Notes under the pieces: generated by a model | What the model saw: the letters and a program-made list of their open reading frames with translations, nothing else | What the model was told of the DNA's origin: nothing | Database searches by the model: none | Part shown: positions 40,969-60,004 of the stretch, piece by piece | Layout: each line of letters opens with the position of its first letter | Position numbering within the stretch: the first letter of the stretch is position 1 | Position numbers and translations under genes: made by a program | Source of the DNA: Paragemmobacter straminiformis | GTDB lineage: Bacteria > Pseudomonadota > Alphaproteobacteria > Rhodobacterales > Rhodobacteraceae | Assembly: GCF_014243445.1 (NCBI RefSeq) | Contig: NZ_JACLQD010000003.1 | Location: 496,001 to 560,000 of the forward strand | Length of the DNA: 64,000 nt | Reading direction: 5' to 3'

Positions 40969-42000
40969 TTGGACGTGAGCGAATTCCTGTTGCCGCGCGA
41001 AGGGGCTTCGGCAAGCGGCGACAACCTTGAATACGACCGCGATTTCATTGCGATGGAGCTTGCCGCCCAGCCCGATGCCGAACGGCAGATGGGCGATGAT
41101 GTCATCGGCGGGTCCGAGCCGGATTGGCGCGATGTGGCCGAAAAGGCGACGGCCGTTCTGCACCGCGCCCATGACCTGCGCGCCGCCGCCGTGCTGGCAT
41201 TGGCCGAGACAAAAACGCGTGGCGTGACCGGATTTGCCGAGGCCACATCCTATGTGCGCGGTTGCCTCGAGCAGTGGTGGGACAGTTGCCACCCGCAGCT
41301 TGACGCGGACGACGACAATGATCCCACGATGCGGATCAACGCGCTGATGGCTTTTGCCGATCAGGACCGGATGCTCAAGGCCCTGCGAACCGCGCCGCTG
41401 ACCGACAGCCGGGCATTCGGCAGGTTCTCGTTGCGGGACATATTGATTGCCGAGGGCGAGATCAGCCCGCTTCCCTCGGACACGGCAAGCGACGTGGCGA
41501 CGATTTCCGCGGCGTTTCAGGATACGTCCGGCGAAACCAAAGAGGCCATCGCGGCGGCAATCGCCAAGGCGTCAAGCGACGTGCAGGCCATCGACAGCAT
41601 CTTTTCGGATCGCACGCCGGGGCAGGGGCCCGACCTCGACCAGCTGTCGCGGATGCTTTACCAGCTGCGCCGCCGCGTCGAGGATTTCACCGGCGTCGCA
41701 CGGGCGGAACCCGATGCGCAGGACGAGGAAGCCGCAGCCCCTGCGGGCGGGGGCGGTCCGGCAGCACCCGCCGCGATGCGCGGCACGGGTCAGGTTTCCA
41801 GCCGGCAAGACGTGGTGGCGGCGCTTGACCAGATCATTGCCTATTACAAACGCACCGAACCCTCGAGCCCGCTGGCGATTTTGATCGAGCGGGCCAAAGG
41901 TCTGGTCGGTGCCGATTTTCTTACCATTGTCAAAGAGTTGGCCCCGGAAGGGCTGGACAGCGTCCAACGCGTCGGCGGCATTAAAACCGACGATTATTGA
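40969..42000 (+). CDS. tssA: T6SS component TssA (ImpA)
   Basis: TssA caps the baseplate and helps sheath extension. The N-terminal ImpA domain contains LEYDRDFIAMELAAQPD, then SEPDWRDVAEKATAVLHRAHDLRAA and YVRGCLEQWWDSCHPQLDADDDNDPTMRINAL, all family hallmarks. The C-terminus ends with a short helical SSPLAILIERAKGLV region after a glycine/alanine-rich linker. I chose the TTG at 40969 (MDVSEFLLPREG) with AGGGG 7 bases upstream; the longer frame has no family similarity. 343 residues. First gene of the cluster. Confidence 0.88.
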   Translation: MDVSEFLLPREGASASGDNLEYDRDFIAMELAAQPDAERQMGDDVIGGSEPDWRDVAEKATAVLHRAHDLRAAAVLALAETKTRGVTGFAEATSYVRGCLEQWWDSCHPQLDADDDNDPTMRINALMAFADQDRMLKALRTAPLTDSRAFGRFSLRDILIAEGEISPLPSDTASDVATISAAFQDTSGETKEAIAAAIAKASSDVQAIDSIFSDRTPGQGPDLDQLSRMLYQLRRRVEDFTGVARAEPDAQDEEAAAPAGGGGPAAPAAMRGTGQVSSRQDVVAALDQIIAYYKRTEPSSPLAILIERAKGLVGADFLTIVKELAPEGLDSVQRVGGIKTDDY

Positions 42001-42020
42001 AAACAGACAGGGAGCAAGGC

Positions 42021-42524
42021 ATGGCCGGCAGTTCACAGAAGTTCGTGGCCCGAAACAGGGCACCACGCGTGCAGATCGAATATGATGTCGAACTCTACGG
42101 GGCGGAAAAGAAGGTTCAGCTGCCGTTCGTCATGGGTGTCATGGCCGATCTGGCCGGAAAGTCCGAAGCGGCGCAGCCCGCGATTGCGGATCGCAAGTTT
42201 CTTGAAATCGACGTCGACAATTTCGACGACCGCATGAAGTCGATGAAGCCGCGCGCCGCGTTCACCGTGCCGAACACCCTGACCGGCGAAGGCAATCTGG
42301 CGGTGGATGTCACGTTTGAATCGATGGAGGATTTCTCGCCCGCCGCAATCGCCCGCAAGGTCGAACCGCTGCGCAAGCTGCTGGAAGCGCGGACGCAGCT
42401 TTCGAACCTGATGACCTATATGGACGGCAAATCGGGTGCCGAGAACCTGATGAGCCAGATCATGCAGGACCCCACCCTTCTCAAGGCGCTGGCCTCGACG
42501 CCCGCCCCCAAAGCCGAAGAGTGA
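42021..42524 (+). CDS. tssB: T6SS sheath small subunit TssB
   Basis: A 167-residue sheath protein that pairs with TssC to form the contractile tube. VQIEYDVELYGAEKKVQLPF with VMGVMADLAGKSEAA and RKFLEIDVDNFDDRMKSMKPR are the family hallmarks, and VTFESMEDFSPAAIARKVEPL is present. ATG at 42021 after AGGGAGC. It sits between tssA and tssC with 8-20 bp spacers. Comparing it with the fused protein at 52539 shows the same order of motifs. Confidence 0.96.
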   Translation: MAGSSQKFVARNRAPRVQIEYDVELYGAEKKVQLPFVMGVMADLAGKSEAAQPAIADRKFLEIDVDNFDDRMKSMKPRAAFTVPNTLTGEGNLAVDVTFESMEDFSPAAIARKVEPLRKLLEARTQLSNLMTYMDGKSGAENLMSQIMQDPTLLKALASTPAPKAEE

Positions 42525-42532
42525 GGTGAGCC

Positions 42533-44017
42533 ATGGCTGACGAAAAGGCACAGGTGTCGTCTGGCGCGACCGAGACGATCTTCGCATCCAGCGAATTCGC
42601 GCAACTTCTGCAAAAGGAATTCCGCCCCAAGTCCGATCAGGCGCGGACCGCTGTCGAGCAGGCCGTAAAGACGCTGGCCGAGCAGGCTTTGGCGAACACC
42701 GATCTGGTCAATGCCGACGCCTTGCGCACCATCGAAGGCATCATCGCCGAGATCGACAAGAAGCTGACCGAACAGATCAACGTCATCCTGCACCACGAGG
42801 ATTTCCAGCAACTGGAAAGCGCGTGGCGGGGTCTGCATTTCCTTGTGAACAACACCGAGACCGACGAGACGCTGAAGATCCGCTTCATGGCGATTTCGAA
42901 GAAAGACCTGTCCAAGACCCTGCGCAAATACAAGGGCACGGCTTGGGACCAGTCGCCGATCTTCAAGCGGGTTTACGAGGAAGAATTCGGCCAGTTCGGC
43001 GGCGAGCCCTATGGCTCGATCGTGGCCGATTACCATTTTGACCATTCGCCGCCCGATGTGGAGCTGCTGGGCGAGCTTGCCAAGATCGCGGCGGCTGCCC
43101 ATGCGCCGATGATCACCGGCGCGAAGCCGTCGCTGTTCCAGATGGACGACTGGTCGGAACTGGCCAATCCGCGCGACCTGACCAAGATTTTCCAGACGCC
43201 GGAATATGCGGCCTGGCGGTCGCTGCGCGAGAGCGAGGACAGCCGCTATATCGGCATCGCCATGCCGCGCTTCCTTGGACGGATTCCCTATGGGTCGAAA
43301 ACCGATCCGGTCGAGGATTTCGCGTTCGAGGAGGACACCGAGGGCGCGTCGAGCGACAAATACTGCTGGGTCAACGCCGCCTATGCGATGGCGACCAACA
43401 TCACGCGGTCGTTCAAGGAATACGGCTGGTGTTCGCGCATTCGCGGCGTTGAAAGCGGCGGTGCGGTGACCAACCTGCCCGCCCATACCTTCCCGACCGA
43501 CGATGGCGGCGTGGATATGAAGTGCCCGACGGAAATCGCCATTTCCGACCGGCGCGAGGCCGAGCTTGCCAAGAACGGCATGATGCCGCTGATCCATCGC
43601 AAGAACAGCGACGTTGCGGCCTTTATCGGTGCGCAGTCTTTGCACAAGCCTGCGGAATACGACAATCCGGATGCGACGGCGAACGCCAATCTGGCCGCGC
43701 GCCTGCCCTATCTGTTCGCGACCACGCGTTTTGCGCATTACCTGAAGTGCATGGTGCGCGACAAGGTCGGGTCGTTCAGCAGCCGCGAAAGCATGGAAGG
43801 CTGGTTGCAGAACTGGATCTCGCAATACGTCGACTTCAACCCCGCAACCTCTCCCGAAGAGGAAAAGGCGCGCCATCCTCTCGCCGAAGCCAAGGTCGTG
43901 GTCGAAGATGTCGAGGGGAACCCCGGCTACTATTCGTCCAAGTTCTTCCTGCGCCCGCATTACCAGCTTGAAGGGCTTTCGGTTTCCCTCCGGCTTGTCT
44001 CGAAGCTTCCGACCTGA
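42533..44017 (+). CDS. tssC: T6SS sheath large subunit TssC
   Basis: A 494-residue sheath subunit. The core has WRGLHFLVNNTETDETLKIR, YGSIVADYHFDHSPPDVELL and FLGRIPYGSKTDPVEDFAFEE. The C-terminus (ARLPYLFATTRFAHYLKCMV ... ARHPLAEAKVVVEDVEGNPG, ending LRLVSKLPT) is the part that makes the inner sheath layer around Hcp. It is the complete canonical copy, unlike the second one at 52539. ATG at 42533 directly after tssB. Confidence 0.96.
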   Translation: MADEKAQVSSGATETIFASSEFAQLLQKEFRPKSDQARTAVEQAVKTLAEQALANTDLVNADALRTIEGIIAEIDKKLTEQINVILHHEDFQQLESAWRGLHFLVNNTETDETLKIRFMAISKKDLSKTLRKYKGTAWDQSPIFKRVYEEEFGQFGGEPYGSIVADYHFDHSPPDVELLGELAKIAAAAHAPMITGAKPSLFQMDDWSELANPRDLTKIFQTPEYAAWRSLRESEDSRYIGIAMPRFLGRIPYGSKTDPVEDFAFEEDTEGASSDKYCWVNAAYAMATNITRSFKEYGWCSRIRGVESGGAVTNLPAHTFPTDDGGVDMKCPTEIAISDRREAELAKNGMMPLIHRKNSDVAAFIGAQSLHKPAEYDNPDATANANLAARLPYLFATTRFAHYLKCMVRDKVGSFSSRESMEGWLQNWISQYVDFNPATSPEEEKARHPLAEAKVVVEDVEGNPGYYSSKFFLRPHYQLEGLSVSLRLVSKLPT

Positions 44018-44715: not shown

Positions 44716-45531
44716 GTGGATTCTGCCGTCACGCTTTTGAAGTCCGGCGACCTCGGCGGATGCCTTGCCTCGTTGCAGGCCGAGGTTCGGGCCAAGCCGC
44801 AGGATGCGAAACTCCGTATCTTCCTGTTCCAGTTGCTTTGCGTGCTTGGCGACTGGAAGCGGGCGGTCACGCAGTTGAAGCTGTGCGCCGAACTCGATCC
44901 AACGGCCACCTCGATGGCGCAGACCTATCGCGAGGCGATCATCTGCGAGGTTTACCGCGAAAAGGTGTTCAGCGGCGAAAAGCAGCCGCTGGTTTTCGGC
45001 GAGCCGCAGGAATGGACCGCGCTGTTGCTGAACGCCTTGAAGCTGCTGGCCGAAGGGCGCGAGGCCGAGGCCGCGATGCTGCGCGACAAGGCGTTCGATC
45101 TGGCCCCCGCAGCGGCGGGGACGCTGAACGAGACCGCTTTCGAGTGGATCGCCGATGCCGACACGCGCTTCGGGCCGCTGCTCGAGATCATCGTCAACGG
45201 CAAGTATTACTGGCTGCCCTTTACGGCGATTGCCGAAATACGTGCCGATCCGCCCAGCGACCTGCGCGATGCGGTCTGGACGGCGGTGAACCTGACCCTT
45301 GCCAATGGTGGCGAGGTGGTCGGCCTGATCCCGTCGCGCTATCCCGGCACGATCCAAGCGGGCAATGCGCTGCAAAAGCTAGCACGGGCAACCGACTGGA
45401 CGGAAACGCCGGGCGGGTGGTTCTTTGGTCTGGGGCAACGCGTTTTTGCGACCGATGCCGGAGAGGTGGCATTGTTCGACATGCGCCGGCTGACCATCAG
45501 CCCGCAGCACGGGGGCGCTTCGGATGGCTGA
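44716..45531 (+). CDS. tagJ: T6SS accessory protein TagJ (ImpE)
   Basis: A 271-residue ImpE-family protein. The N-terminal half is TPR-like (LKSGDLGGCLASLQAEVRAK, then DAKLRIFLFQLLCVLGDWKRAVTQL). The C-terminal half has DTRFGPLLEIIVNGKYYWLP and RDAVWTAVNLTL, both family hallmarks. TagJ binds the TssB N-terminus and may regulate sheath disassembly by ClpV. Start GTG at 44716 behind GGAGAG. Its stop overlaps the tssE start by 8 bp. Confidence 0.92.
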   Translation: MDSAVTLLKSGDLGGCLASLQAEVRAKPQDAKLRIFLFQLLCVLGDWKRAVTQLKLCAELDPTATSMAQTYREAIICEVYREKVFSGEKQPLVFGEPQEWTALLLNALKLLAEGREAEAAMLRDKAFDLAPAAAGTLNETAFEWIADADTRFGPLLEIIVNGKYYWLPFTAIAEIRADPPSDLRDAVWTAVNLTLANGGEVVGLIPSRYPGTIQAGNALQKLARATDWTETPGGWFFGLGQRVFATDAGEVALFDMRRLTISPQHGGASDG

Positions 45532-47888: not shown

Positions 47889-48925
47889 CGCGCGCTTTCG
47901 ACGAATTCCTGACGGCGCCGGAACGCACCCATGTGTTGCAGGCCTTTCGCCTGCTCGAAGCGCATTTCGCGGATGCCCCCCGTTTCGGCGAGGCGCGGCG
48001 TCCGTCCGAGGACCCGATCCGTATCGGGCAATTGCCGGAAATGGCGTTTCCCACCTCGACCATCGCCGAATTCTCGATGCCGCAGGCGGGCAAGCCGGGG
48101 CGGCTTTCGAACCGCTTCTTCGGCCTGTTCGGACCGCACGGCCCCTTGCCGCTGCATCTGACCGAATATGCCCGCGACCGCTTGCGCAACCACGCCGACG
48201 GAACGCTTGTCGGCTTTGCCGATATGCTGACCCACCGCTTTGCGACGCTGTTTTACCGCGCTTGGGTCCAAGGCCAGCCCGCCCCCAGTTTCGACAGGGG
48301 CAAGGATGCCGCATTCGAGCGCAAGGTCGCGGCGCTGTCGGGCTATATGGGGCGCGGCCTGCAAGAGCGCGACGCGATGCCCGATCTGGCCAAACGCCAT
48401 TTCGGCGGATTTCTCGGATCGGGTCCGAAACATGCCGAGGGCCTTGTCTCTATCGTTGCGTCCTTTGTCCGCGCGCCCGTCAGGCTTGAGCAGTTCATCG
48501 GATCGTGGCTTCCGCTGGAACCGGGCGACCAATGGCAACTGGGCCGCCGCACCGCGCTTGGCCGGTCGACCAGCATCGGCACCCGTGTCTGGAGCCGGAC
48601 ATCGAAATTCCGCCTGCGGATCGGGCCGCTGGGTCTGGCAGAATACCGCAGCCTGTTGCCGGGCGGGCGCGGGCTGGCGCAGGTCGATGCCATCGTCAGG
48701 AATTACGTTGGCGAGCAGTTCGAGTGGGAGCTGAACCTTGTTCTGGCCGCGCGCAGCGTGCCCAAGCCCATTTTGGGAAAGGGTGCCACCCTTGGCCAGA
48801 CCACTTGGATCGGCCGCCGTCCGGCAGACCGGGATGCCGACTCGCTTCACCTCAATCCTGCCCTCTTGAACCGGTCGCCCGCCAAGCCGACCGCAACGAC
48901 GCAGAAAAAAGGACGCATGACATGA
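47885..48925 (+). CDS. tssG: T6SS baseplate protein TssG
   Basis: A 346-residue protein that joins two TssF copies in the wedge. AFPTSTIAEFSM, NRFFGLFGPHGPLPLHLTEY, LVGFADMLTHRFATLFYRAW and the C-terminal GLAQVDAIVRNYVGEQFEWE are family hallmarks. ATG at 47885 overlaps the tssF stop, and its own TGA overlaps the tssH ATG (ATGA at 48922), so three genes are translationally coupled. Confidence 0.95.
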   Translation: MTRAFDEFLTAPERTHVLQAFRLLEAHFADAPRFGEARRPSEDPIRIGQLPEMAFPTSTIAEFSMPQAGKPGRLSNRFFGLFGPHGPLPLHLTEYARDRLRNHADGTLVGFADMLTHRFATLFYRAWVQGQPAPSFDRGKDAAFERKVAALSGYMGRGLQERDAMPDLAKRHFGGFLGSGPKHAEGLVSIVASFVRAPVRLEQFIGSWLPLEPGDQWQLGRRTALGRSTSIGTRVWSRTSKFRLRIGPLGLAEYRSLLPGGRGLAQVDAIVRNYVGEQFEWELNLVLAARSVPKPILGKGATLGQTTWIGRRPADRDADSLHLNPALLNRSPAKPTATTQKKGRMT

Positions 48926-51612
48926 CCGAGATCAGCCGCGTTGCATTGTTCGGCAAATTGAACAGGCTTGGCTATCAAGCCATCGAAAGCGCGGCGGTGT
49001 TCTGCAAGTTGCGCGGCAACCCCTATGTCGAGGTGGTGCATTGGTTCCACCAGATCTTGCAGGGGCAAGACAGCGACCTTCACCGCCTGATCCAGTTCTA
49101 CGGGCTGGATCCCGCCAAGCTGGCGCAGCAGATCACCCGCGCCCTCGATGCGCTGCCGCGCGGGGCGAGCAGCATTTCGGACATTTCCGCGCATGTGGAT
49201 ACCGTGCTGGAACGTGCGTGGGTCTATGCCTCGCTGAAATATGGTTCGGCGCAGGTGCGCAGCGGGCATCTGGTCCTTGCGATGCTCAAGACACAAAGCC
49301 TGCAACCGGTGCTGTTCGGCATCGCCGACGAGTTCCGCCGCATCAAGCCCGATGATCTGGCCGAAAACTTCGACGCGGCGGTGAATGGCAGCCCCGAGGA
49401 CGGGCAGGCCCCGCAGGATGGCAGCGGCCATTCGGGGGCCGGTGTGGGCGAAGGGTCGGGCGCGATGGCTCCGGCGCAGATGGGCAAGGAAGAGGCGCTC
49501 AAGCAGTTCTGCACCGACCTGACCCAGCAGGCCCGCGACGGCAAGATCGACCCGATCGTGGGACGGGACGAGGAAATCCGGCAGGTTATCGACGTTCTGA
49601 TGCGCCGCCGCCAGAACAACCCCATCCTGACCGGCGAGGCGGGGGTGGGTAAGACCGCCGTCGTCGAAGGCTTTGCCCTGCGGATCGCGCGGGGTGACGT
49701 GCCGCCCGCCTTGGCCGATGCGCGTATCCTTGTGCTGGACGTGGGTCTGTTGCAGGCCGGCGCGTCGATGAAGGGGGAATTCGAGAACCGCCTGCGGTCG
49801 GTCATCGACGAGGTGCAGGCAAGCACGACGCCGGTGATCATGTTCATCGACGAGACCCACACCCTTGTCGGGGCGGGCGGGGCGGCGGGAACGGGCGATG
49901 CGGCGAACCTGCTGAAACCGGCGCTGGCGCGGGGCACGCTGCGCACCATCGGGGCGACGACCTGGGCCGAATACAAGCGCCATATCGAAAAAGACCCCGC
50001 CCTGACCCGCCGTTTCCAGACCGTCGTTGTCGAGGAACCCAGCCCGGCCAAGGCGATCATGATGATGCGCGGCATCGCCTCGATGCTTGAGCGCCACCAC
50101 AAGGTGCAGGTGCTGGACGAGGGGATCGAGGCCGCCGTGAACCTGTCGGCGCGCTATATCCCGGCGCGGCAATTGCCCGACAAATCGGTTTCCGTTCTGG
50201 ACACCGCCTGCGCGCGGGTGGCTGTCAGCCAATATGCCGTGCCCGCCGAGGTGGACGACAGCCGCCGCCGCATCTCGGCGCTGGAAACGGAACTCGAGAT
50301 CATCGGGCGCGATGAAACCGCGGGCTATGATGTGGGCGACCGACGCGATGCGGTCACCCATGCCAAGGCCGACGAGGAGCTGCGCCTTGCGGAACTGACC
50401 GCCCGTTGGGAGGGCGAGAAGAAGGTGGTCGAGGAAATCCTGTCGCTGCGGGCCAAGCTGCGCGAAGGTGCCGCCCCCGTGGACACGGTCGACGCGCCGC
50501 AAAGCCCGCTGTCACCCGAGGACCGCGCCGCCCTGCTGGCCGAGTTGAAGGCCAAGAACGCCGAACTTGTCGCGTTGCAGGGTGAAAGCCCGCTGATCCT
50601 GCCAATTGTCGATGCCCAGGCCGTGGCAAGCGTGGTGGGCGACTGGACCGGCATTCCCGTGGGCCGCATGGTCAAGGACGAGATCGGCACCGTGCTGCAT
50701 CTGGACGAATATCTCGCCAAGCGGGTCATCGGTCAGGACCATGCGATGAAGATGATCGCAAAGCGGATCCAGACCAGCCGCGCGGGGCTGGACAACCCGT
50801 CAAAGCCCATCGGGGTTTTCATGCTGGCCGGAACCTCGGGCGTGGGAAAGACGGAAACCGCGCTTGCCCTTGCCGAGCTGCTTTATGGCGGCGAGCAGAA
50901 CTGCATCACCATCAACATGAGCGAATATCAGGAGGCGCATACCGTCTCGTCGCTCAAGGGCGCACCTCCGGGCTATGTCGGCTATGGCGAGGGCGGGGTG
51001 CTGACCGAGGCTGTGCGCCGCAAACCCTATTCGGTCGTCTTGCTGGACGAGGTGGAAAAGGCACACCCCGATGTGCATGAGCTGTTCTTTCAGGTGTTCG
51101 ACAAAGGGCTGATGGAGGATGGCGAGGGGCGGCAGATCGATTTCCGCAACACGCTGATCCTGCTGACCACCAATGCCGGAACCGACATGATCATGGACAT
51201 GTGTTCCGACCCCGACCTGATGCCGGACCCCGAAGGCATGGCAAAGGCGCTGCGCGAACCGCTGCTCAAGATCTTTCCGCCCGCGCTGCTGGGGCGTCTG
51301 GTCGTGATCCCGTATTATCCGCTGTCGCCCGAGATGGTGGGCAAGATCACCCGCCTGCAACTGAACCGTATCAAGAAGCGGGTCGAAGCGGCGCATGGCG
51401 TGCCCTTTACCTATTCCGACGCGGTCGTCGACCTGATCGTGAGCCGCTGCCAAGAGGTCGAAAGCGGCGGGCGCATGATCGACGCCATCGTGACCAATTC
51501 CATGCTGCCGGATGTCTCGGGCGAATTCCTGCGCCGCATGATGGCCGGCACCGAGGTCAAGCAGGTCGCCATCGATGTTGCCGACGGCGGCTTCTCGTAC
51601 GGCTTCGATTGA
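48922..51612 (+). CDS. tssH: T6SS ATPase TssH (ClpV)
   Basis: An 896-residue AAA+ ATPase that recycles contracted sheath. The N-domain (1-~150) is followed by AAA1 with Walker A GEAGVGKT (238-245) and Walker B MFIDETH, a middle domain, then AAA2 with Walker A GTSGVGKT (about 637-644) and LLDEVEKAHPD. The C-terminal ClpB D2 small domain is present. A glycine/serine-rich linker of about 25 residues (ending near 182) lies between N-domain and AAA1. Coupled to tssG by ATGA. 12 bp separate it from the next gene. Confidence 0.96.
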   Translation: MTEISRVALFGKLNRLGYQAIESAAVFCKLRGNPYVEVVHWFHQILQGQDSDLHRLIQFYGLDPAKLAQQITRALDALPRGASSISDISAHVDTVLERAWVYASLKYGSAQVRSGHLVLAMLKTQSLQPVLFGIADEFRRIKPDDLAENFDAAVNGSPEDGQAPQDGSGHSGAGVGEGSGAMAPAQMGKEEALKQFCTDLTQQARDGKIDPIVGRDEEIRQVIDVLMRRRQNNPILTGEAGVGKTAVVEGFALRIARGDVPPALADARILVLDVGLLQAGASMKGEFENRLRSVIDEVQASTTPVIMFIDETHTLVGAGGAAGTGDAANLLKPALARGTLRTIGATTWAEYKRHIEKDPALTRRFQTVVVEEPSPAKAIMMMRGIASMLERHHKVQVLDEGIEAAVNLSARYIPARQLPDKSVSVLDTACARVAVSQYAVPAEVDDSRRRISALETELEIIGRDETAGYDVGDRRDAVTHAKADEELRLAELTARWEGEKKVVEEILSLRAKLREGAAPVDTVDAPQSPLSPEDRAALLAELKAKNAELVALQGESPLILPIVDAQAVASVVGDWTGIPVGRMVKDEIGTVLHLDEYLAKRVIGQDHAMKMIAKRIQTSRAGLDNPSKPIGVFMLAGTSGVGKTETALALAELLYGGEQNCITINMSEYQEAHTVSSLKGAPPGYVGYGEGGVLTEAVRRKPYSVVLLDEVEKAHPDVHELFFQVFDKGLMEDGEGRQIDFRNTLILLTTNAGTDMIMDMCSDPDLMPDPEGMAKALREPLLKIFPPALLGRLVVIPYYPLSPEMVGKITRLQLNRIKKRVEAAHGVPFTYSDAVVDLIVSRCQEVESGGRMIDAIVTNSMLPDVSGEFLRRMMAGTEVKQVAIDVADGGFSYGFD

Positions 51613-51624
51613 GGGGGAAAGGGG

Positions 51625-52542
51625 ATGAAGCTTTTCAAGATCAGCTTTCGGATAAACCCCCTCGCGGAAACGTCGAGGGAGACGAAGAAGGCACTTGAAA
51701 ATGACCCGAAATGCCGACCGCTGGTGTTGGCTTATTATTATGAGGACTCGGTCGAACTTAACGAACGCAAGTGGGACGATAAGGAGCTGTTCGAGGCACT
51801 TACGGCCTTTGTCCGCTATGATCTTCAGGTGCTGAGTGTCGCACTTGCCGATGCGGTCAAGAACTCGCAAAAGAAAGGCGAACCGCTTTCGGAACTGGTC
51901 AAGGATGTCATCGCCGATTTCAAGCAGAAGCTTGATAAAAAGATATCCCGGGGTCTGGATGAATTGAAAGGCGACGGCGGTGCCAACAAGGCCACCGCAA
52001 AGAGCATGACGGATGCGCTGAAGAAGATCGCCGCCGATGTTTCCGAGGATGCAATTACAAAAGCTGCCGATGCGTTGAAGTCATTCGTCGAGACCTTCGC
52101 AAAGGCCATAGGAGACGAGGAAGTCACGCTCGACAGGTTGGTTTCGTCCAAGGCCATTCGGGAATACGAGAAGATCATGGCCGCGTTCACCAAATCGACC
52201 AAGGCGGCAGACCAGTCGATTCAGGGCGTGATCTCGGCTGTGAAACAGATCAAGAACAAGAAGGATCTTGAAGCGAGGATCGTTGCCATAATCGAAAGCG
52301 TGAAGTCGGACGTTTCGACGTTCGAAGACTATCTTTCGGAATACAAGGAATTTGAGCGCGAGGCCGGTGCGATCAAATCGGAACTTGGCAACAAGACGGT
52401 TTCGGCCAAGAACCTGCATGATATTATAAAAGATCTGGATAAATTAAAAGGCGCTGACAAGAAGGCCAAAGACATCAGAACCAAAAGCGCCAATGCCAGA
52501 CGGCAGCTTAAACAGGCCATGACGGACCTTAAACTCAAATGA
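51625..52542 (+). CDS. Unknown lysine-rich helical protein in the T6SS cluster
   Basis: A 305-residue protein I do not recognise. The N-terminal 80 residues (MKLFKISFRINPLAETSRET ... ERKWDDKELFEALTAFVRYD) form a compact alpha-beta-like part. The remainder is almost wholly helical and rich in Lys, Asp and Ala, with coiled-coil-like repeats (KSMTDALKKIAADVSEDAIT, ITKAADALKSFVETFAKAIG). No signal or membrane segment. Codon use is more A/T-rich than its neighbours (AAA, GAA, ATA-type codons, ATTATAAAAGATCTGG). GGGGGAAAGGGG precedes the ATG. Its stop overlaps the next gene's ATG (ATGA at 52539). It could be a T6SS effector, a chaperone or an accessory structural protein. Confidence 0.75.
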   Translation: MKLFKISFRINPLAETSRETKKALENDPKCRPLVLAYYYEDSVELNERKWDDKELFEALTAFVRYDLQVLSVALADAVKNSQKKGEPLSELVKDVIADFKQKLDKKISRGLDELKGDGGANKATAKSMTDALKKIAADVSEDAITKAADALKSFVETFAKAIGDEEVTLDRLVSSKAIREYEKIMAAFTKSTKAADQSIQGVISAVKQIKNKKDLEARIVAIIESVKSDVSTFEDYLSEYKEFEREAGAIKSELGNKTVSAKNLHDIIKDLDKLKGADKKAKDIRTKSANARRQLKQAMTDLKLK

Positions 52543-55106
52543 CACGCAACAGTGATGAAACCCCGCCGCAGGACGGCACCGGCAAGGGCACCGCGTCAAG
52601 CGGGGGCGGCGATCTGCAATCGGCGTTTGCCGCCCTGCGCCGGGCTGCGGGCGAGGCAGCGCCTGCGGCGTCCGATGCCGCGTCTGACGCCCTTGCCGCC
52701 CTGCGCGGAACCGTCGCGGCCGAAAGCCCAGCCGCGGCAGAGGACGCGACGGATGCGCTTGGAGCGCTTCTCGGAACGCTTGGGGCCGATGCCGAAGCAC
52801 AGGACCCGGAACCGGACCTTGGCGCGCTTTTGCAGGGTCTGGCCGATGAACCGGCCCCCGACGGGGTGACGGATCTTGACGCCCTGCTTGGCGCGCTGGG
52901 CGAAGCGCCGGTCGGCGATGCCCTGCCCGAGGTCGCATCGACCGACGCGCTTTCGCTGGCGGGCCTTGGCTTTCATGCCGAACCGCCGCCCGATGCGGAT
53001 TTGCCCGACGCGCGCGATGACGTTCTTGGCGCCCTTGCGCGTGCGGGGGCGCAGGCGCAGGACACGGGCGGGGAAACCGACGACATTGGCGCGCTGCTGG
53101 CGGGCCTGACGCAACAGGCCCCCGCCGACGCCGCAGACAGCGCCGGCAGCGGGCTGGACGATCTTGACGCGCTGTTGGCGGGTGTCGGGCTTGCAGAGGA
53201 CGGCCCGTCGACCGAGGGCGCGGCCGAAGGCGACCCCCTTGCAGCCCTTCTGGAAGATATGGGCGCAGTGCAGGATGCGGCATTGCCGCCTGCGGTGCCG
53301 GTTGCCGAAGCCGGTGATCCGGTCACCGACGGGGGCCTGCCGCCGGACCCCGCGCCCGCCGATGCGGTGCAGGCCCCCGCGGCGGCCCGCCCCGCCGTGC
53401 AGGATGAATTTGGCCGCCTGCCGCTTGCTGCGCCCGATCCTGCCCGCCTGAAACGCGATGTGTTCCGCATTGCCATTCTGGCCGATTGCTCGGGGCGGTC
53501 GGCCTCGGGCAGGCTTGGCGTCGGAGATGACATTGCCGCGCGCCGCGCCATCCGGCTGGATATCGACCGGCTCGATGACATCATCGAAAGTTTCGCCACC
53601 ACCCTGAGCCTTCAGGTCGGCGCTGACGGTGCCGCGATCGAGGTCGCGTTGCGTGATCTCGATGCGCTGCATCCGGACGAGCTGTTCGAGAATGTCGAGC
53701 TGTTCTCGGCGCTGAAATCCATGCGGCAAAGCCTGTCGGGCAGCGCGGCGGCCCATGCGATCCGCCAGATGCAGGGCTGGGCGCAGGACGGGTCTGCCGG
53801 GCTGATGCCGCAGCGCGCCAAGTCGTCGGGGGGGGCCGTTCCGGCGGACCAACGGCTCGATGGGCTGGCTGCACTGGTCGCGCAACCGCGCAGGGCCGCG
53901 CAAACCCCCGTGGCCGATCTGTTGGCCCGCGCCGTGGCTCCGCATGTCGTGGCCGCGCCGCACCCCGAAGCGGGCGCCTATCGCGCGGCGGTCGATGCCG
54001 CCCTGACCGATGCGATGCGGCTTGTGCTGCATCATCCAGAATTCAGGCAGGTCGAGGTGACGTGGCGCACGCTCGATTTCCTTGCCCGGCGGATCGAGAC
54101 CGATGCCAAGGTGCAGATCACCCTTTATGACATTTCGGCCGAGGAATTTGCCGCCGATCTGGCTGCCGAAGAGGACCTGACGCGGACAGGCCTGTTCCGC
54201 CTTTTGGCCGAAAACCCGCTGTCGGAAAGCGGGGCAGGCGGGTATTCGGCCATCTTCGGGCTGTATGGTTTCGAGGAAACACCGCCGCACGCGGCGCTTC
54301 TGGCGCGCATGGCGCAAATCGCCGCCTGGGCCGACGCGCCCTTTGTGACCGGATTGTCGAATGCCGTGATCGAGGTCGCGCCCGAGGACCGCCATCCGCT
54401 TGTCCGCGCGGCGTGGGACAGGCTGCGCGCCCTGCCGCAGGCGAAATGGCTGGGGCTTGCCTTGCCGCGTTTCATGCTGCGGCGTCCCTATGGCAAGAAA
54501 TCCGAACCGGTCGACAGTTTCGCTTTCGAGGAATTCGATCCGGCTGCGGGGTTGAACAGCCTGCTCTGGGGCCATCCGGCCGCTGTGATCGCCGTGCTTC
54601 TGGCGCAAAGCTGGACCAAGGGCGGGCGCGATCCGGCAAAGGTGCTGAGCATCGGCGAGATGCCGTTCCACTACATCACCGACCGGCATGGCGATCAGGT
54701 CGCCTTGCCCTGCACCGAACGCAACCTGACGCTGACGCGGCTTGAATCCGTCGCGGCGCGGGGCCTGATGCCGCTTGTGTCGATCCGCGGGCGCGATCAG
54801 GTGCGGCTGGCCTCGTTCCAGTCCTTTGGCGGCGGTCCGCTGCTGGGCCAGTGGTCCGACAGCGCGATGCGGCCCCAGACGCTGGCACAGCCCGGTCCCG
54901 CAGCACCGGAAACGCCTGCGCCCGCGCCCGACGCGCCTGCACCCGCCGCTTCCGCCGAAATGGTCGTCTCGCAAGAGTTTCCGGCAGAGCCGGCGGCCCT
55001 CGACGATCTGGACGCGCTTTTGGCCGGGTTTGCCGACACCGGAACCGCCGAACCCGGGCAGGACGGTCTTGATGCCGAGCTTGCCGCATTGCTGGAGGGA
55101 CTATGA
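52539..55106 (+). CDS. TssB-like/TssC-like fusion protein with DxxALLxGL repeats
   Basis: An 855-residue protein. Residues 1-290 are acidic, Ala/Pro-rich and carry about eight repeats of the type DLDALLGAL (near 72, 93, 112, 161, 182, 208, 233); two more are at the very C-terminus (823-832, 846-855). Residues about 307-400 resemble TssB (FRIAILADCSGR, DIDRLDDIIESF, DLDALHPDEL). Residues about 478-770 resemble TssC (EVTWRTLDFLARRIETDAKV, ALPRFMLRRPYGKKSEPVDS, SFAFEEFDP, GLMPLVSIRGRDQVRLASFQ). The part equivalent to the last 120 residues of TssC is missing. Related to second TssC-type (TssC40/ImpD) proteins of alphaproteobacterial imp clusters. Cytoplasmic; probably a non-canonical sheath or baseplate partner. 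Confidence 0.8.
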   Translation: MTRNSDETPPQDGTGKGTASSGGGDLQSAFAALRRAAGEAAPAASDAASDALAALRGTVAAESPAAAEDATDALGALLGTLGADAEAQDPEPDLGALLQGLADEPAPDGVTDLDALLGALGEAPVGDALPEVASTDALSLAGLGFHAEPPPDADLPDARDDVLGALARAGAQAQDTGGETDDIGALLAGLTQQAPADAADSAGSGLDDLDALLAGVGLAEDGPSTEGAAEGDPLAALLEDMGAVQDAALPPAVPVAEAGDPVTDGGLPPDPAPADAVQAPAAARPAVQDEFGRLPLAAPDPARLKRDVFRIAILADCSGRSASGRLGVGDDIAARRAIRLDIDRLDDIIESFATTLSLQVGADGAAIEVALRDLDALHPDELFENVELFSALKSMRQSLSGSAAAHAIRQMQGWAQDGSAGLMPQRAKSSGGAVPADQRLDGLAALVAQPRRAAQTPVADLLARAVAPHVVAAPHPEAGAYRAAVDAALTDAMRLVLHHPEFRQVEVTWRTLDFLARRIETDAKVQITLYDISAEEFAADLAAEEDLTRTGLFRLLAENPLSESGAGGYSAIFGLYGFEETPPHAALLARMAQIAAWADAPFVTGLSNAVIEVAPEDRHPLVRAAWDRLRALPQAKWLGLALPRFMLRRPYGKKSEPVDSFAFEEFDPAAGLNSLLWGHPAAVIAVLLAQSWTKGGRDPAKVLSIGEMPFHYITDRHGDQVALPCTERNLTLTRLESVAARGLMPLVSIRGRDQVRLASFQSFGGGPLLGQWSDSAMRPQTLAQPGPAAPETPAPAPDAPAPAASAEMVVSQEFPAEPAALDDLDALLAGFADTGTAEPGQDGLDAELAALLEGL

Positions 55107-55402
55107 CCGTGACCCTTCCCGACGACACGCGCCACCTGCCGATGCTTTTGGCGGTCGGCACGTCCTATACCTTGTTCCGTGGCGAGGAACATCTCGACGA
55201 TATTCTGATGACGGGAAAGAACTACCCCTTGCCCGTGCTGTGCATCCGCTTCGAGTCCGCCTTTGAAATGGGCATGTTCATCGCGCAAGCAGGATCGCAA
55301 AGTGACAACTGGGGGATAAATCCGGGCATCGTCGACCGGCTGAAGCGTGACGGACATCTGCACGAAATCGCATATCGGCCGGGGGATGGAAGCACGCCAT
55401 GA
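55103..55402 (+). CDS. Unknown 99-residue protein directly upstream of vgrG
   Basis: A small soluble alpha-beta protein (GTSYTLFRGEEHLDDILMTG, LCIRFESAFEMGMFIAQAGS, NWGINPGIVDRLKRDG). I recognise no family. It overlaps the fusion gene upstream (ATGA at 55103) and vgrG downstream (ATGA at 55399), so it is translated with both. That position suits a VgrG- or sheath-specific adaptor or an effector chaperone. Single cysteine; no signal peptide; composition normal for the host. Confidence 0.65.
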   Translation: MTVTLPDDTRHLPMLLAVGTSYTLFRGEEHLDDILMTGKNYPLPVLCIRFESAFEMGMFIAQAGSQSDNWGINPGIVDRLKRDGHLHEIAYRPGDGSTP

Positions 55403-57501
55403 CCGCAAAACAGTTCATCCTCGAGAACCGCGATGTCGTGCTTTACGCGCCGATGATCAAGGGCGCGAACTTCACGCGCGCCGTGATCGACGAGGGCCTG
55501 AGCGAGCCGATGTCGGCCACCGTAGAATTCGCCGTATCGGACCGCGATCTGGATTACTCGAAGATCCTCGGGCGGGAATTGGCCGTGCGTGTCGCCATCG
55601 GCGAGGAAAAATGGCGCGATTTCCGGGGGATTGCCTTTGAGATCGAATATATCGGCATGTTCGAGGGGCTTTATCTTTACAGCGTCCAACTTCGGTCATG
55701 GCTGTGGCTGCTGACGCTGTCCAAGAACAACCGGGTGTTTCAGGACCTGTCGCTTCAGGACATCGTGAAACGGGTCATCGGGGACTACGGACAAAGCGAT
55801 TTCGAATTCAAGACAAGCCGCGAATACAAGAAGCGCCCCTATACGATCCAGCACAACGAGACCGATTTCGACTTCCTCTCGCGGCTGCTCGAGGAAGAAG
55901 GGATGTATTATTTTTCGAACTGCGAGAACGGCAAGGAGAAGATCTTCTTCGTCGACGGGATCGGCGGGCATACCACGGTGCCGGAGGCCGCGACGATCAA
56001 GTATTACGAGCCGGAACCCAACTACCGCCGCACGGTCGACCATATCTTCGACTGGATATCGTCGGAACAGGTGACGACCGGCAAGGTGACGCTGTCGGAT
56101 TACAATTTCGAAACCCCGAAGTCGGACCTGACGACAAAGTCGGCGCAGCCCAAAGGCTCGCATGGCAACAAGGACCGTGAACACTATGTCAGCCCCGGAA
56201 AGTATCGCGACACCGAGGCGGGCAATACTTTTGCACGCATCCAGATGGAGGCCATCGCCGCCCGCCACACGTCGCGCCGCGCGGTCTGCAACGTGCCGAC
56301 GATGGCGGTCGGGTTCATCTTCGACCTCGACCAGCATCCGCGTTCAACGGAAAACGCCGCCTATCTGGTGACGCGCGCGCGCCATCTGGTCCAGATCGAG
56401 CCGAAGTCCAAGGAAATGGTCGACGCCCTTGGCATGCTTCACGGGCGCCTGCCGAACGATCCGGACAACTACGACCGCTATCGCAGCCAGATCGAGGTGC
56501 TTCCCAAGACGTCGGTTTTCCGCGCCGAACGCAAGGTGCCGTGGCCGCAGATTCCGGGACTCATGATCGCAAAGGTCGTTGGTCCCAAGGGCGAGGAAAT
56601 CTTTACCGACAAGTACGGGCGCATCAAAGTGCAGTTCCCCTGGGACCGCGAGGGCAAGAACGACGACCATTCGTCCTGTTTCGTGCGCTGCGTCATGCCT
56701 TGGGTGGGCAACAAATGGGGCATGGTGTCGATTCCGCGCATCGGCCAAGAGGTCGTGATCCAGTTCGAGGACGGCAACCCCGACCGGCCGATCTGCACGG
56801 GCATGCTCTACAATGCCGACAACATGCCGCCCTATGATCTTCCGGCCAACAAGACGCAGACGGGCATCAAGACCAACACCTCGGCCGGCGGGGGCGGGTT
56901 CAACGAACTGATGTTCGAGGACAAGAAGGGCGAAGAACTGGTCCGCATGCAGGCCGAGAAGGATTTCACCCAGATCGTCAAGAACAACGCGACGGTGACC
57001 ATCGGGATTGAAAAGAAGGATGCGGGCAACCTGACCCAGACCATCCAGAACCACCTGACCGAAACGCTGAAAGCCGGGGACCATACCTTTACCGTCGAGG
57101 CGGGCAAGGAGACGCGCAAGATCGCGAAGGACCAGACCGAGGAAGTCGGCGCGAACCGCAAGAAGGACATCACCGGCGACAGCACCGAAACCGTCGGTGG
57201 AAACGAGAAACTGGACGTCACCGGAAACCGGGAGATCACGGTGACCGGCAACCAGAAGACATCGATTACCGGCACCGAAACCACCGAAACCACCGGCACC
57301 GCCGACTGGAAGGTGAAAGGCCCGATCACGATCGAATCCAATGCCTCGATCACGCTCAAGGTCGGCGGTTCGCAGATCGTGATCAGCCCGCTGGGCGTCA
57401 CCGTCGAAGGGATGTCGATCAAGACCGACGCCAAGATGGCGGCCGAGCATTCGGGCGGGCTGTCGATGGTGGTCAAGGGCTTGATGGTGAACATAAACTG
57501 A
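55399..57501 (+). CDS. vgrG: T6SS spike protein VgrG (TssI)
   Basis: A 700-residue trimeric spike. N-terminal gp27-like region (FTRAVIDEGLSEPMSATVEF, YTIQHNETDFDFLSRLLEEEGMYYFS) is followed by the gp5 OB-fold region (GPKGEEIFTDKYGRIKVQFPWD, WVGNKWGMVSIPRIGQEVVI, GNPDRPICTGMLYNADN). The C-terminal beta-helix is made of repeats rich in VTGN and VGGNEK-type turns. It ends in GGLSMVVKGLMVNIN without an added toxin domain, so it is a structural spike rather than an evolved effector VgrG. Followed directly by DUF6931-like and PAAR genes. Confidence 0.95.
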   Translation: MTAKQFILENRDVVLYAPMIKGANFTRAVIDEGLSEPMSATVEFAVSDRDLDYSKILGRELAVRVAIGEEKWRDFRGIAFEIEYIGMFEGLYLYSVQLRSWLWLLTLSKNNRVFQDLSLQDIVKRVIGDYGQSDFEFKTSREYKKRPYTIQHNETDFDFLSRLLEEEGMYYFSNCENGKEKIFFVDGIGGHTTVPEAATIKYYEPEPNYRRTVDHIFDWISSEQVTTGKVTLSDYNFETPKSDLTTKSAQPKGSHGNKDREHYVSPGKYRDTEAGNTFARIQMEAIAARHTSRRAVCNVPTMAVGFIFDLDQHPRSTENAAYLVTRARHLVQIEPKSKEMVDALGMLHGRLPNDPDNYDRYRSQIEVLPKTSVFRAERKVPWPQIPGLMIAKVVGPKGEEIFTDKYGRIKVQFPWDREGKNDDHSSCFVRCVMPWVGNKWGMVSIPRIGQEVVIQFEDGNPDRPICTGMLYNADNMPPYDLPANKTQTGIKTNTSAGGGGFNELMFEDKKGEELVRMQAEKDFTQIVKNNATVTIGIEKKDAGNLTQTIQNHLTETLKAGDHTFTVEAGKETRKIAKDQTEEVGANRKKDITGDSTETVGGNEKLDVTGNREITVTGNQKTSITGTETTETTGTADWKVKGPITIESNASITLKVGGSQIVISPLGVTVEGMSIKTDAKMAAEHSGGLSMVVKGLMVNIN

Positions 57502-58429: not shown

Positions 58430-60004
58430 ATGACCGTGACGCTGCGCTTCCAGTCGACAGGAACGGTTCCCGGCAATGGCCGCCCCGTCAGCATGACCGG
58501 CACAAGCCTGACCATCGGGCGCGGGCCGGAGAACGATCTGGTCTTGCCCGACCCCGACAGGATGATCTCGAAACGCCACTGCGTGATCGAGGATCATGGC
58601 GGCAATATCGTGGTGATCGACTTTTCGTCGAACGGGACCTTTCTGAACTATGGCAAGGTTCCGCTGGGTCAGGTGACGACCCCGCTGAACGATGGCGACG
58701 TGCTGTCGATGGGAACCTATGAACTTGTCGTGTCGATCAGTCAGGCACGCGGCTTCGACCCGCTGGCCGATCTGCCCCCGCCCGTGGGCGAGGTGGCGGT
58801 GTCGCATGGCAATGCGGGTGCTGCGCCGGACCTGTCGAACCTGCTGGACGATCCGTCGCGCGGCGGAGATTTCCTTGACGATCTGATGGGGGCGGCGGCG
58901 CGGCCGGCGGGGCCTGCGGCGGTGCAGCGCGAGGACCCGTTCGATCCGCTGTCGCTGGCACCCCTGCCCGACGATGATGATTTTCTGACACCCGCAGCAC
59001 CCGTCGCCTTTGGCGGGGCGTCGCGGTCGAACCATTCGGCATCGGCGCAGGATGCGTTCCGGCCGAGCGGCGTGGCGGCATCCGCCTCGGTCATTCCTGA
59101 CGACTGGGACGATCTGTTGGCGCCGACGCCCGCCCCGACACCCGCGCCGCGCGCGCCTGCGGCCCCGCCGCCCCCGCGTCCTGCGGCGGCGGCCCCCGTG
59201 GCACCGGCTGCGATTCCTGTCGAGCTGGACGACGATTTCCTTTCCGACCTTGCCCCCGCGCCTGTGGCCCCCGCGCCGCTTGCGCCCCCACCTGTTGCGC
59301 CTGTCGCCGAACCCGCCGCAGCGCCGCCGCCGCAGGCACCGGCGGTGGCAGCCCCTGTCGCGCCGCCCGTCAGCGCCCCGCCTGTGGCTGCCGACCCCGC
59401 GCCCGTGACAGGCCCCGCCGCATCGCAGGATGCGGCCCGCGCCTTCCTTCATGCGCTCGGGGTCGAGGGCCTTGCCGTGCCGGATGCGGACCTGCCCGAC
59501 ACCATGACGCGCCTTGGCGGTGTCTTGCGCGCGATGATCGAAGGCCTGCGCGAGATCCTGATGACGCGGACCTCGATCAAGGGCGAGTTCCGCATCAACC
59601 AGACCATGATCAGCGCGGGCCGCAACAACCCGCTGAAATTCTCGGTGACGCCGGAGCAGGCCGTCGAGGCCCTGGTCAAACCGCCACCGCGTGGCTACCT
59701 CGACGCGCCGACCGCGACGGCCGAAGCCCTGCGTGACATCAAGGCGCACGAGGTGGCGATGGTCACGGGGATGGAGGCGGCGCTGAAAGGGGTGCTGGGC
59801 AAGCTGGACCCCAAGGCGCTGGAAAGCCGGATCGTCGCCAAGGGCGGCTTTGCGGGACTGCTGAAGAACCGCAAGGCGCAATACTGGGAAACCTACGAGG
59901 CGCTCTACGCCGAAATTTCCGATCAGGCCGAGAACGATTTCCAAGAGCTTTTCGCCCGCGAATTCGCCCGCGCCTATCAGGAACAACTGGAAAAACTGAA
60001 ATGA
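58430..60004 (+). CDS. tagH: T6SS FHA-domain protein TagH (Fha/ImpI)
   Basis: A 524-residue protein. The FHA domain (1-~105) has LTIGRGPENDLVLPDPDRMI with SKRHCVIEDHGGNIVVID and SSNGTFLNYGKV, the phosphothreonine-binding residues R, S, N in order. A 230-residue Pro/Ala-rich acidic linker follows, with DLSNLLDD, DFLDDLMG, DDWDDLLA and DDDFLSDLA. The C-terminal domain (about 345-524) has LRAMIEGLREILMTRTSIKG and YWETYEALYAEISDQAENDF, the TagH hallmark. Fha proteins transmit kinase signals (PpkA/PppA) in posttranslational control; no kinase gene is visible in this window. Confidence 0.93.
   Translation: MTVTLRFQSTGTVPGNGRPVSMTGTSLTIGRGPENDLVLPDPDRMISKRHCVIEDHGGNIVVIDFSSNGTFLNYGKVPLGQVTTPLNDGDVLSMGTYELVVSISQARGFDPLADLPPPVGEVAVSHGNAGAAPDLSNLLDDPSRGGDFLDDLMGAAARPAGPAAVQREDPFDPLSLAPLPDDDDFLTPAAPVAFGGASRSNHSASAQDAFRPSGVAASASVIPDDWDDLLAPTPAPTPAPRAPAAPPPPRPAAAAPVAPAAIPVELDDDFLSDLAPAPVAPAPLAPPPVAPVAEPAAAPPPQAPAVAAPVAPPVSAPPVAADPAPVTGPAASQDAARAFLHALGVEGLAVPDADLPDTMTRLGGVLRAMIEGLREILMTRTSIKGEFRINQTMISAGRNNPLKFSVTPEQAVEALVKPPPRGYLDAPTATAEALRDIKAHEVAMVTGMEAALKGVLGKLDPKALESRIVAKGGFAGLLKNRKAQYWETYEALYAEISDQAENDFQELFAREFARAYQEQLEKLK

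Follow-up and report, generated by a model that had tools for sequence, protein, structure and literature searches.

A TssCL variant without the N-terminal TssB arm in the type VI secretion cluster of Paragemmobacter straminiformis, a possible sheath-derived adaptor

The type VI secretion system (T6SS) cluster of Paragemmobacter straminiformis encodes, alongside canonical TssB and TssC, a TssCL-like accessory protein in which a TssB-like and a TssC-like half are joined in one chain. Its gene occupies positions 52539..55106 of the window, the 64,000-nucleotide stretch of contig NZ_JACLQD010000003.1 (positions 496,001 to 560,000) analysed here, and forms an intact open reading frame (ORF) of 855 amino acids with an ATG start codon; all window features given below with '..' coordinates are on the forward (+) strand. 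TssCL is an already known, uncharacterised kind of protein, and the ORF, domains, family and trees identify the window protein as a variant of it that lacks the canonical TssB arm found at the N-terminus of long relatives. The chances are about even that it is an accessory, sheath-derived adaptor, with motif-bearing tails, of a T6SS of the TagJ/ClpV1 class.

A preliminary description of this sequence had placed TssB-like and TssC-like parts in a single 855-residue chain with unusual tails, in a cluster that also holds canonical tssB (41997..42524, alternative start 42021; PF05591, 200 bits) and tssC (42533..44017; PF05943 and PF18945), and these claims were borne out. In the Pfam comparison the protein matched VipB (PF05943) at residues 483-762 (154 bits, E 6e-45) and T6SS_VipA (PF05591) at residues 309-400 (23.4 bits, E 5.5e-5), the latter narrowly missing the curated cut-off of 24 bits and beginning at position 28 of the 155-position profile. 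The NCBIfam profiles gave the same TssB-then-TssC order, with scores below the equivalog cut-offs for both canonical TssB (TIGR03358; 19.4 bits vs 97.25) and canonical TssC (TIGR03355; 149 bits vs 271.5). Among relatives, the PF05591 cut-off was passed by the equivalent TssB-like region of L003 (50.2 bits), L076 (47.7), L075 (43.1), L129 (38.0) and L113 (28.3) and missed by that of L006 (22.0) and L004 (18.9). The TssB likeness of residues 307-400, which had been left to a profile search, was found with hhalign: the profile of the TssB-like half (TssB'; window 53463..53738; 44 rows) aligned to that of 35 TssB sequences at 98.6% (E 6.2e-16), covering TssB positions 43-135 of 175. The TssC-like half (TssC'; window 53985..54824) aligned at 100% (E 1.1e-53) to 36 TssC rows, covering TssC positions 66-371 of 494, and shares 30% identity with the canonical TssC of the window.

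Two elements of canonical sheath subunits are missing from this head. The C-terminal TssC domain (PF18945) was detected in none of the 44 family members, against 6/6 canonical TssC proteins, and TssB', aligning from TssB position 43, lacks the N-terminal region of TssB including the handshake strand. By the sheath anatomy given in the available part of PMC5807055, the inner-layer handshake mesh would thus be absent, with the middle and outer layers remaining. Considering that both handshake elements are missing, the window protein should not polymerise like a sheath subunit. In structure prediction of the chain, which the preliminary description had proposed, the head matches a sheath-protein fold, both halves aligning to a single sheath chain (PDB 9qgp, 6rao, 9gtp, 3j9q, 8q1i) at 7-12% identity, in models built from 8 sequences (mean predicted local distance difference test scores, pLDDT, of 62.2 and 68.5). 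The chain ranges of these matches, some of which reach the chain end, were set aside as proof of inner-domain loss in favour of the sequence profile test. The chains matched are single-chain sheath proteins of extracellular contractile injection systems (eCIS), R-pyocins and phages; a point of difference, besides the low identity, is that these proteins build the sheath lattice and touch the tube with an inner domain. Comparison of the head core with predicted viral structures returned nothing at E 0.001, which is no evidence of absence.

The head is flanked by tails carrying amphipathic motifs of the LDxLL type. The low-complexity N-terminal tail (residues 1-300; 52539..53438) holds eight of them (residues 50-59, 72-81, 92-101, 111-120, 161-170, 181-190, 207-216 and 232-241), compared with 1.14 expected and a count that was reached in 0/2000 shuffles. 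Across the 27 family members with N-tails longer than 150 residues, 544 motifs were counted against a shuffled mean of 91 (200 shuffles, highest 114), and 206/517 motif spacings (39.8%) fall at 20-22 residues against 2.2% in the shuffles, which ignore tandem duplication and so inflate the contrast. Hydrophobic autocorrelation in the long N-tails peaks at 21, 20 and 42, in line with a motif repeat of about 21 residues. The C-tail of the window protein carries two further motifs, DDLDALLAGF (residues 822-831; 55002..55031) and AELAALLEGL at the extreme C-terminus (residues 846-855; 55074..55103). An LD[AD]LLA[GS]F-like pattern corresponding to the former occurs in the C-tail of all 41 tailed members, the other three of the 44 being tailless. 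The terminal motif (DAELAALLxDL) has leucine at position -8 in 37, at -5 in 36 and at -4 in 36 of the 38 uncut C-termini. The C-tail motifs are conserved across classes, for which duplication does not account.

The family set comprises 44 distinct proteins, after removal of a duplicate (L107, equal to L051 in contig and ORF length) and of six canonical TssC proteins drawn in by the core hidden Markov model (HMM). By the TssB HMM, a complete N-terminal TssB, 72-83% identical to the window TssB, is present in 22/44 members; these are 1059-1712 amino acids long and run from TssB through a long, mostly acidic tail to the core and the C-tail. The remainder consists of three proteins cut upstream (5' end; L040, L114 and L117), fifteen short ones (549-742 amino acids, three of them, L005, L008 and L009, cut at the 3' end), three distant tailless ones and the window protein, in which the TssB HMM finds no N-terminal arm and which keeps its tail of some 300 residues within 855 amino acids. 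Nor was a TssB remnant found beside the window gene, the preceding 305-amino-acid gene ending at the start of the ORF. In the core tree, the window protein is sister to L129 (742 amino acids; support 99/97), and the pair groups with the TssB-bearing L042 and L126 (94/71). Every member from another family than the Rhodobacteraceae is either short or tailless, and the TssB-bearing forms require nine changes on the tree, at least six of them forced by well-supported branches. This distribution is read here as gain of the TssB arm within the Rhodobacteraceae followed by repeated loss, the window protein probably being a reduced form that kept the tail repeats; several separate gains of the arm are also conceivable. 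As regards annotation, the public gene model of the Ruegeria conchae TssCL starts inside the N-terminal TssB arm (L050:17619-18357), the frame opening 738 bases earlier.

A wider tree, which combines 18 members of the 44-protein family with 20 canonical and three second TssC proteins, places the TssCL core family in one clade (100/100), apart from canonical and second TssC proteins (100/100). The window core nests in this clade, its C-tail carries the two motifs, and the tailed members are approximately 40-58% identical to it in the core across genera and classes. The existence of a single family clade, set apart in this way, speaks against a recent roseobacter fusion. The core was found in 32/295 sampled genomes of the Rhodobacteraceae, in 2/385 of the class (that of the window and the tailless G242) and in 3/399 of the order of a Variovorax genome (the seed and two tailless proteins), all counts being lower bounds since at most four to five candidates were scored per genome under a strict E-value. 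Matches were also obtained in Burkholderiales, in alphaproteobacterial metagenome-assembled genomes (MAGs) and in one Pirellulaceae (planctomycete) MAG, which also holds a canonical TssC and in which the match may be a binning error; among the best matches listed, the core lies on plasmids of Leisingera, Ruegeria, Qingshengfaniella, Eleftheria and others. On its plasmid, Eleftheria terrae has consecutive RebB R-body genes (L052:35208-37307) near a T6SS cluster with a TssCL-like gene and four hcp genes. None of the 18 other genomes of the window genus matched the core or the canonical TssC, and these congeners thus seem to lack such a T6SS altogether. Canonical TssC was found in all 35 carriers searched, comprising 32/32 Rhodobacteraceae, each with one strong copy and a TssCL-type gene, and 3/3 tailless carriers, as well as in three Burkholderiales.

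The architecture had been considered unusual, and a survey of T6SS clusters had been suggested; rarity is supported by the above counts, while novelty holds in part only, as the available sections of PMC9515649 already describe TssCL in 20/28 roseobacter references, with two VipA domains and one VipB domain, and without an assigned function. The preliminary description, which a function already on record would have refuted, therefore stands on that point. The window protein shares with that type the TssB'-TssC' core and a TagJ-class cluster that also contains canonical tssB and tssC; it has a short, diverged VipA domain ahead of a single VipB domain that is only distantly similar to canonical TssC, and its core nests among those of two-VipA proteins such as L050. 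It differs in having no N-terminal full-length VipA and in its length (855 vs 1,684 amino acids in the described type), and is therefore classed here as an armless form within the TssCL core clade rather than a strict TssCL. The same sections report TssCL from Alphaproteobacteria only and propose a recent event; new here are the occurrence of the core outside the Alphaproteobacteria, in Burkholderiales and a planctomycete MAG, and its position as one clade apart from canonical TssC and the rhizobial second TssC. They also describe a second tssC in place of TssCL in Tateyamaria clusters, which may be a short form of TssCL. In open-licence PMC literature, the wording of a TssB-TssC fusion gave no match and the name TssCL gave one paper.

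The comparison with TssC40/TssC41 made in the preliminary description was not upheld. TssC40/ImpD-type proteins resemble the family in that each is a second TssC, diverged from the canonical one with which it shares a TagJ cluster in Alphaproteobacteria, and one of them, A. tumefaciens Atu4340, is required for Hcp secretion according to the available part of PMC3702570. However, the rhizobial second TssC (L149:5992-7380, 462 amino acids) and two other alphaproteobacterial ones have PF05943 and PF18945 and no VipA, the rhizobial protein leaving no room for tails, and the three form a clade of their own (100/100). The separation of the family clade from these three proteins, which stand in for Atu4340, a sequence that was itself not compared, speaks against the analogy. 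The one-chain TssB-TssC of a small-genome alphaproteobacterium (L049/L018, 641 amino acids) has TssB followed by TssC, as does the window protein; it differs in its complete VipA, VipB and VipB_2 and is thus a plausible real sheath subunit. Chains of this kind, with TssB and a complete TssC in approximately 640-690 amino acids, were observed in small-genome Alphaproteobacteria at L049:1467-3392 (G103), the one whose domains were checked by profile, at L036:721-2778 (G144) and probably in L031 (G107).

Read as an adaptor, the window protein combines equivalents of TssB 43-135 and TssC 66-371 in one chain with tails of eight and two amphipathic motifs, and is encoded between tssH and vgrG with complete TssB, TssC, TagJ and ClpV alongside. 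The head would fold as a stand-alone pseudo-protomer that stays outside the lattice and docks on the sheath, on the baseplate or on free subunits, and its tails may offer the LDxLL motifs as multivalent docking sites to a putative T6SS partner. The protein would gather this partner at the machine and tune assembly, firing or recycling. In many Rhodobacteraceae relatives, the fused complete TssB may anchor the protein in the sheath with its tail on the outside, and the window protein, without the arm, would act in trans. Several observations weigh against such a role. The pattern used for the motif was adjusted by eye after the tails had been seen, and no partner was found, a motif matrix run over the other cluster proteins of the window and of R. 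conchae giving weak matches only, at most two per protein, in Fha, ClpV, TssK and TssM. The motif is no more like the N-terminal helix of TssC than expected by chance (BLOSUM62 scan of 36 TssC rows, which include one second TssC and one duplicate of the window TssC). The models rest on 8 sequences and predict the C-terminal part of TssC' poorly, and the modelled C-tail helices have pLDDT values of about 30-40, so that no docking is predicted. In the Burkholderiales loci L004, L006 and L007, no main T6SS cluster surrounds the TssCL-like gene (one weak TssL-like match lies 2.6 kb away in L004); that the gene stands apart from the T6SS clusters which its genome does encode is compatible with action in trans and weakens the case for a role tied tightly to the cluster.

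The best rival to the adaptor is a cap, terminator or titrator, whose head would bind TssB/TssC or the sheath end, block growth and limit the number or length of sheaths. Retention of the protomer fold without the polymerising elements, and the single copy beside one canonical TssC in all 32 Rhodobacteraceae carriers searched, would suit such a role, which is nonetheless rather unlikely as it leaves unexplained the conserved C-terminal motifs, the 21-residue repeats and the complete TssB arm of 22/44 members. The mixed sheath raised in the preliminary description, in which the chain would replace some TssB-TssC protomers, is disfavoured because neither the N-terminal strand of TssB nor the C-terminal domain of TssC is present. 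In its favour, the fold resembles that of single-chain sheath proteins and long relatives have a canonical TssB arm; the window protein, however, is armless and contrasts with the L049 chain, which keeps all three domains, and a real sheath subunit is improbable. Still less probable is that the motif rows imitate a ClpV-binding TssC helix and recruit or decoy ClpV to steer disassembly. The position of the gene soon after tssH would fit, as would, superficially, the likeness of LDDLL to LLDEIM, the short amphipathic TssC helix recognised by ClpV of V. cholerae (available part of PMC4239648). However, the window ClpV (Arg6, Asp87) belongs to the class with a blocked groove, whose TssC, according to the same source, binds without the helix, and in the 20/36 TssC rows with a recognisable N-helix pattern this helix took ranks from 2nd to 56th in likeness to the motif and never scored above 14, the shuffled median of the best score. 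Mimicry of this helix was accordingly rejected. Decay of a functionless pseudo-duplicate, to which the patchy occurrence (32/295 family and 2/385 class genomes) might point, is very hard to reconcile with the open frame, the core identity across genera and classes, the single clade and the strictly kept C-terminal motifs.

Mimicry of Fha (TagH) was a further candidate reading of the motif. The linkers of the Fha proteins of L136, L137, L140, L141 and L050 (R. conchae) contain a DFLDDLLG-like motif, and in the window Fha (58430..60004) the linker has a weak match (DDWDDLLAPT, score 7.3). The candidate was rejected, as the motif occurs also in four clusters without TssCL, and it would at most reflect a shared, general partner.

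In relatives, the TssCL gene is frequently preceded, within the T6SS cluster, by the gene of a voltage-gated sodium channel (NaV type), found directly upstream in 25/30 Rhodobacteraceae loci with uncut upstream sequence (L050:16769-17626 of R. conchae and 24 more: L042, L044, L051 and 21 of L108-L134). The window locus is one of the five without it. With the first start codon taken, the channel gene overlaps the TssCL start by 4-32 bases in 19/25 loci. Among solved bacterial sodium-channel chains, the R. conchae channel matches 5hvx (NavMs) best (E 9e-80), with the NavAb construct 6p6w among the others matched. The sequence FQIMTLESWSMGI is common to all 26 channel rows (25 and a duplicate), TLESW being the filter sequence of bacterial NaV channels. 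Such channels occur in 98/149 genomes of the family at large, and the group close to the T6SS-linked query (E <1e-90) is confined to 13 genomes, 13/13 of them on the list of TssCL carriers; six of the 13 hold a second, more distant channel elsewhere, so that the T6SS-linked channels form a close group separate from the widespread ones. The window genome has no match to the channel query, and the channel is thus not needed by every family member. Among the matches listed in open-licence PMC literature on sodium channels and T6SS, none by its title or the start of its abstract concerned a channel gene in a T6SS cluster, and the terms 'channel' and 'ion transport' do not occur in the main text of PMC9515649. 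In a speculative extension to which a low probability is attached, the TssCL core would be a sheath protomer remade as an adaptor for signalling. The T6SS would be linked to a dedicated NaV channel, encoded just upstream, through the motif tails and also, in many Rhodobacteraceae, through the TssB arm anchored in the sheath. Depolarisation of the membrane, for example by an attacker, would then be coupled to sheath assembly or firing, and the window protein would represent a reduction in which channel and anchor had both been lost.

The chief points of interest are that the head lacks polymerising elements, that the terminal motifs are conserved and that relatives show a linkage to a channel gene. 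Should the adaptor role hold, a contractile-sheath protomer would have taken on the work of a regulator or scaffold, for which no parallel was met in the T6SS literature as far as available, and it would be questionable whether TssCL is a sheath fusion of recent, alphaproteobacterial origin; the module of NaV-type channel and TssCL genes might connect membrane potential to contact-dependent killing.

Read across the window and the adjoining genome sequence, the cluster runs TssA, TssB, TssC, Hcp, TagJ, TssE, TssF, TssG and TssH/ClpV, followed by the 305-amino-acid protein, the TssCL-like protein, VgrG, DUF6931, a small gene in the place of PAAR (assigned by position, not by profile) and Fha, and then by TssK, TssL, TssM and homologs of TagF and PP2C, with kinase and OmpA pieces beyond. 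TagJ (ImpE; 44716..45531) matches PF07024 (E 5e-43), and tssH/clpV (48922..51612; AAA/Clp domains) is of the charged-groove class by direct reading of Arg6 and Asp87, a class that is defined in PMC4239648 and, in its available part, goes with TagJ. The 305-amino-acid protein (51625..52542) belongs to no known family, is rich in Lys and Asp, and has weak homologs in L051 and L129; its stop overlaps the TssCL-like start by four bases (ATGA). The downstream neighbour is vgrG (55399..57501), and vgrG follows the TssCL-type gene in 32/44 loci, the rest being contig or stretch ends or other contexts. Twelve family genomes were TssC-positive and TssCL-negative. In the clusters of the four inspected, tssH is followed by vgrG with no match between them for TssCL, the channel or the 305-amino-acid gene, the other core genes being present except for Hcp in G080 and the phosphatase/kinase at some stretch ends. 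Between the TssCL-like gene and vgrG, window positions 55109-55398 hold a short open frame that starts with GTG and spans about 97 codons, and a hypothetical gene of similar size occupies the same position in L051.

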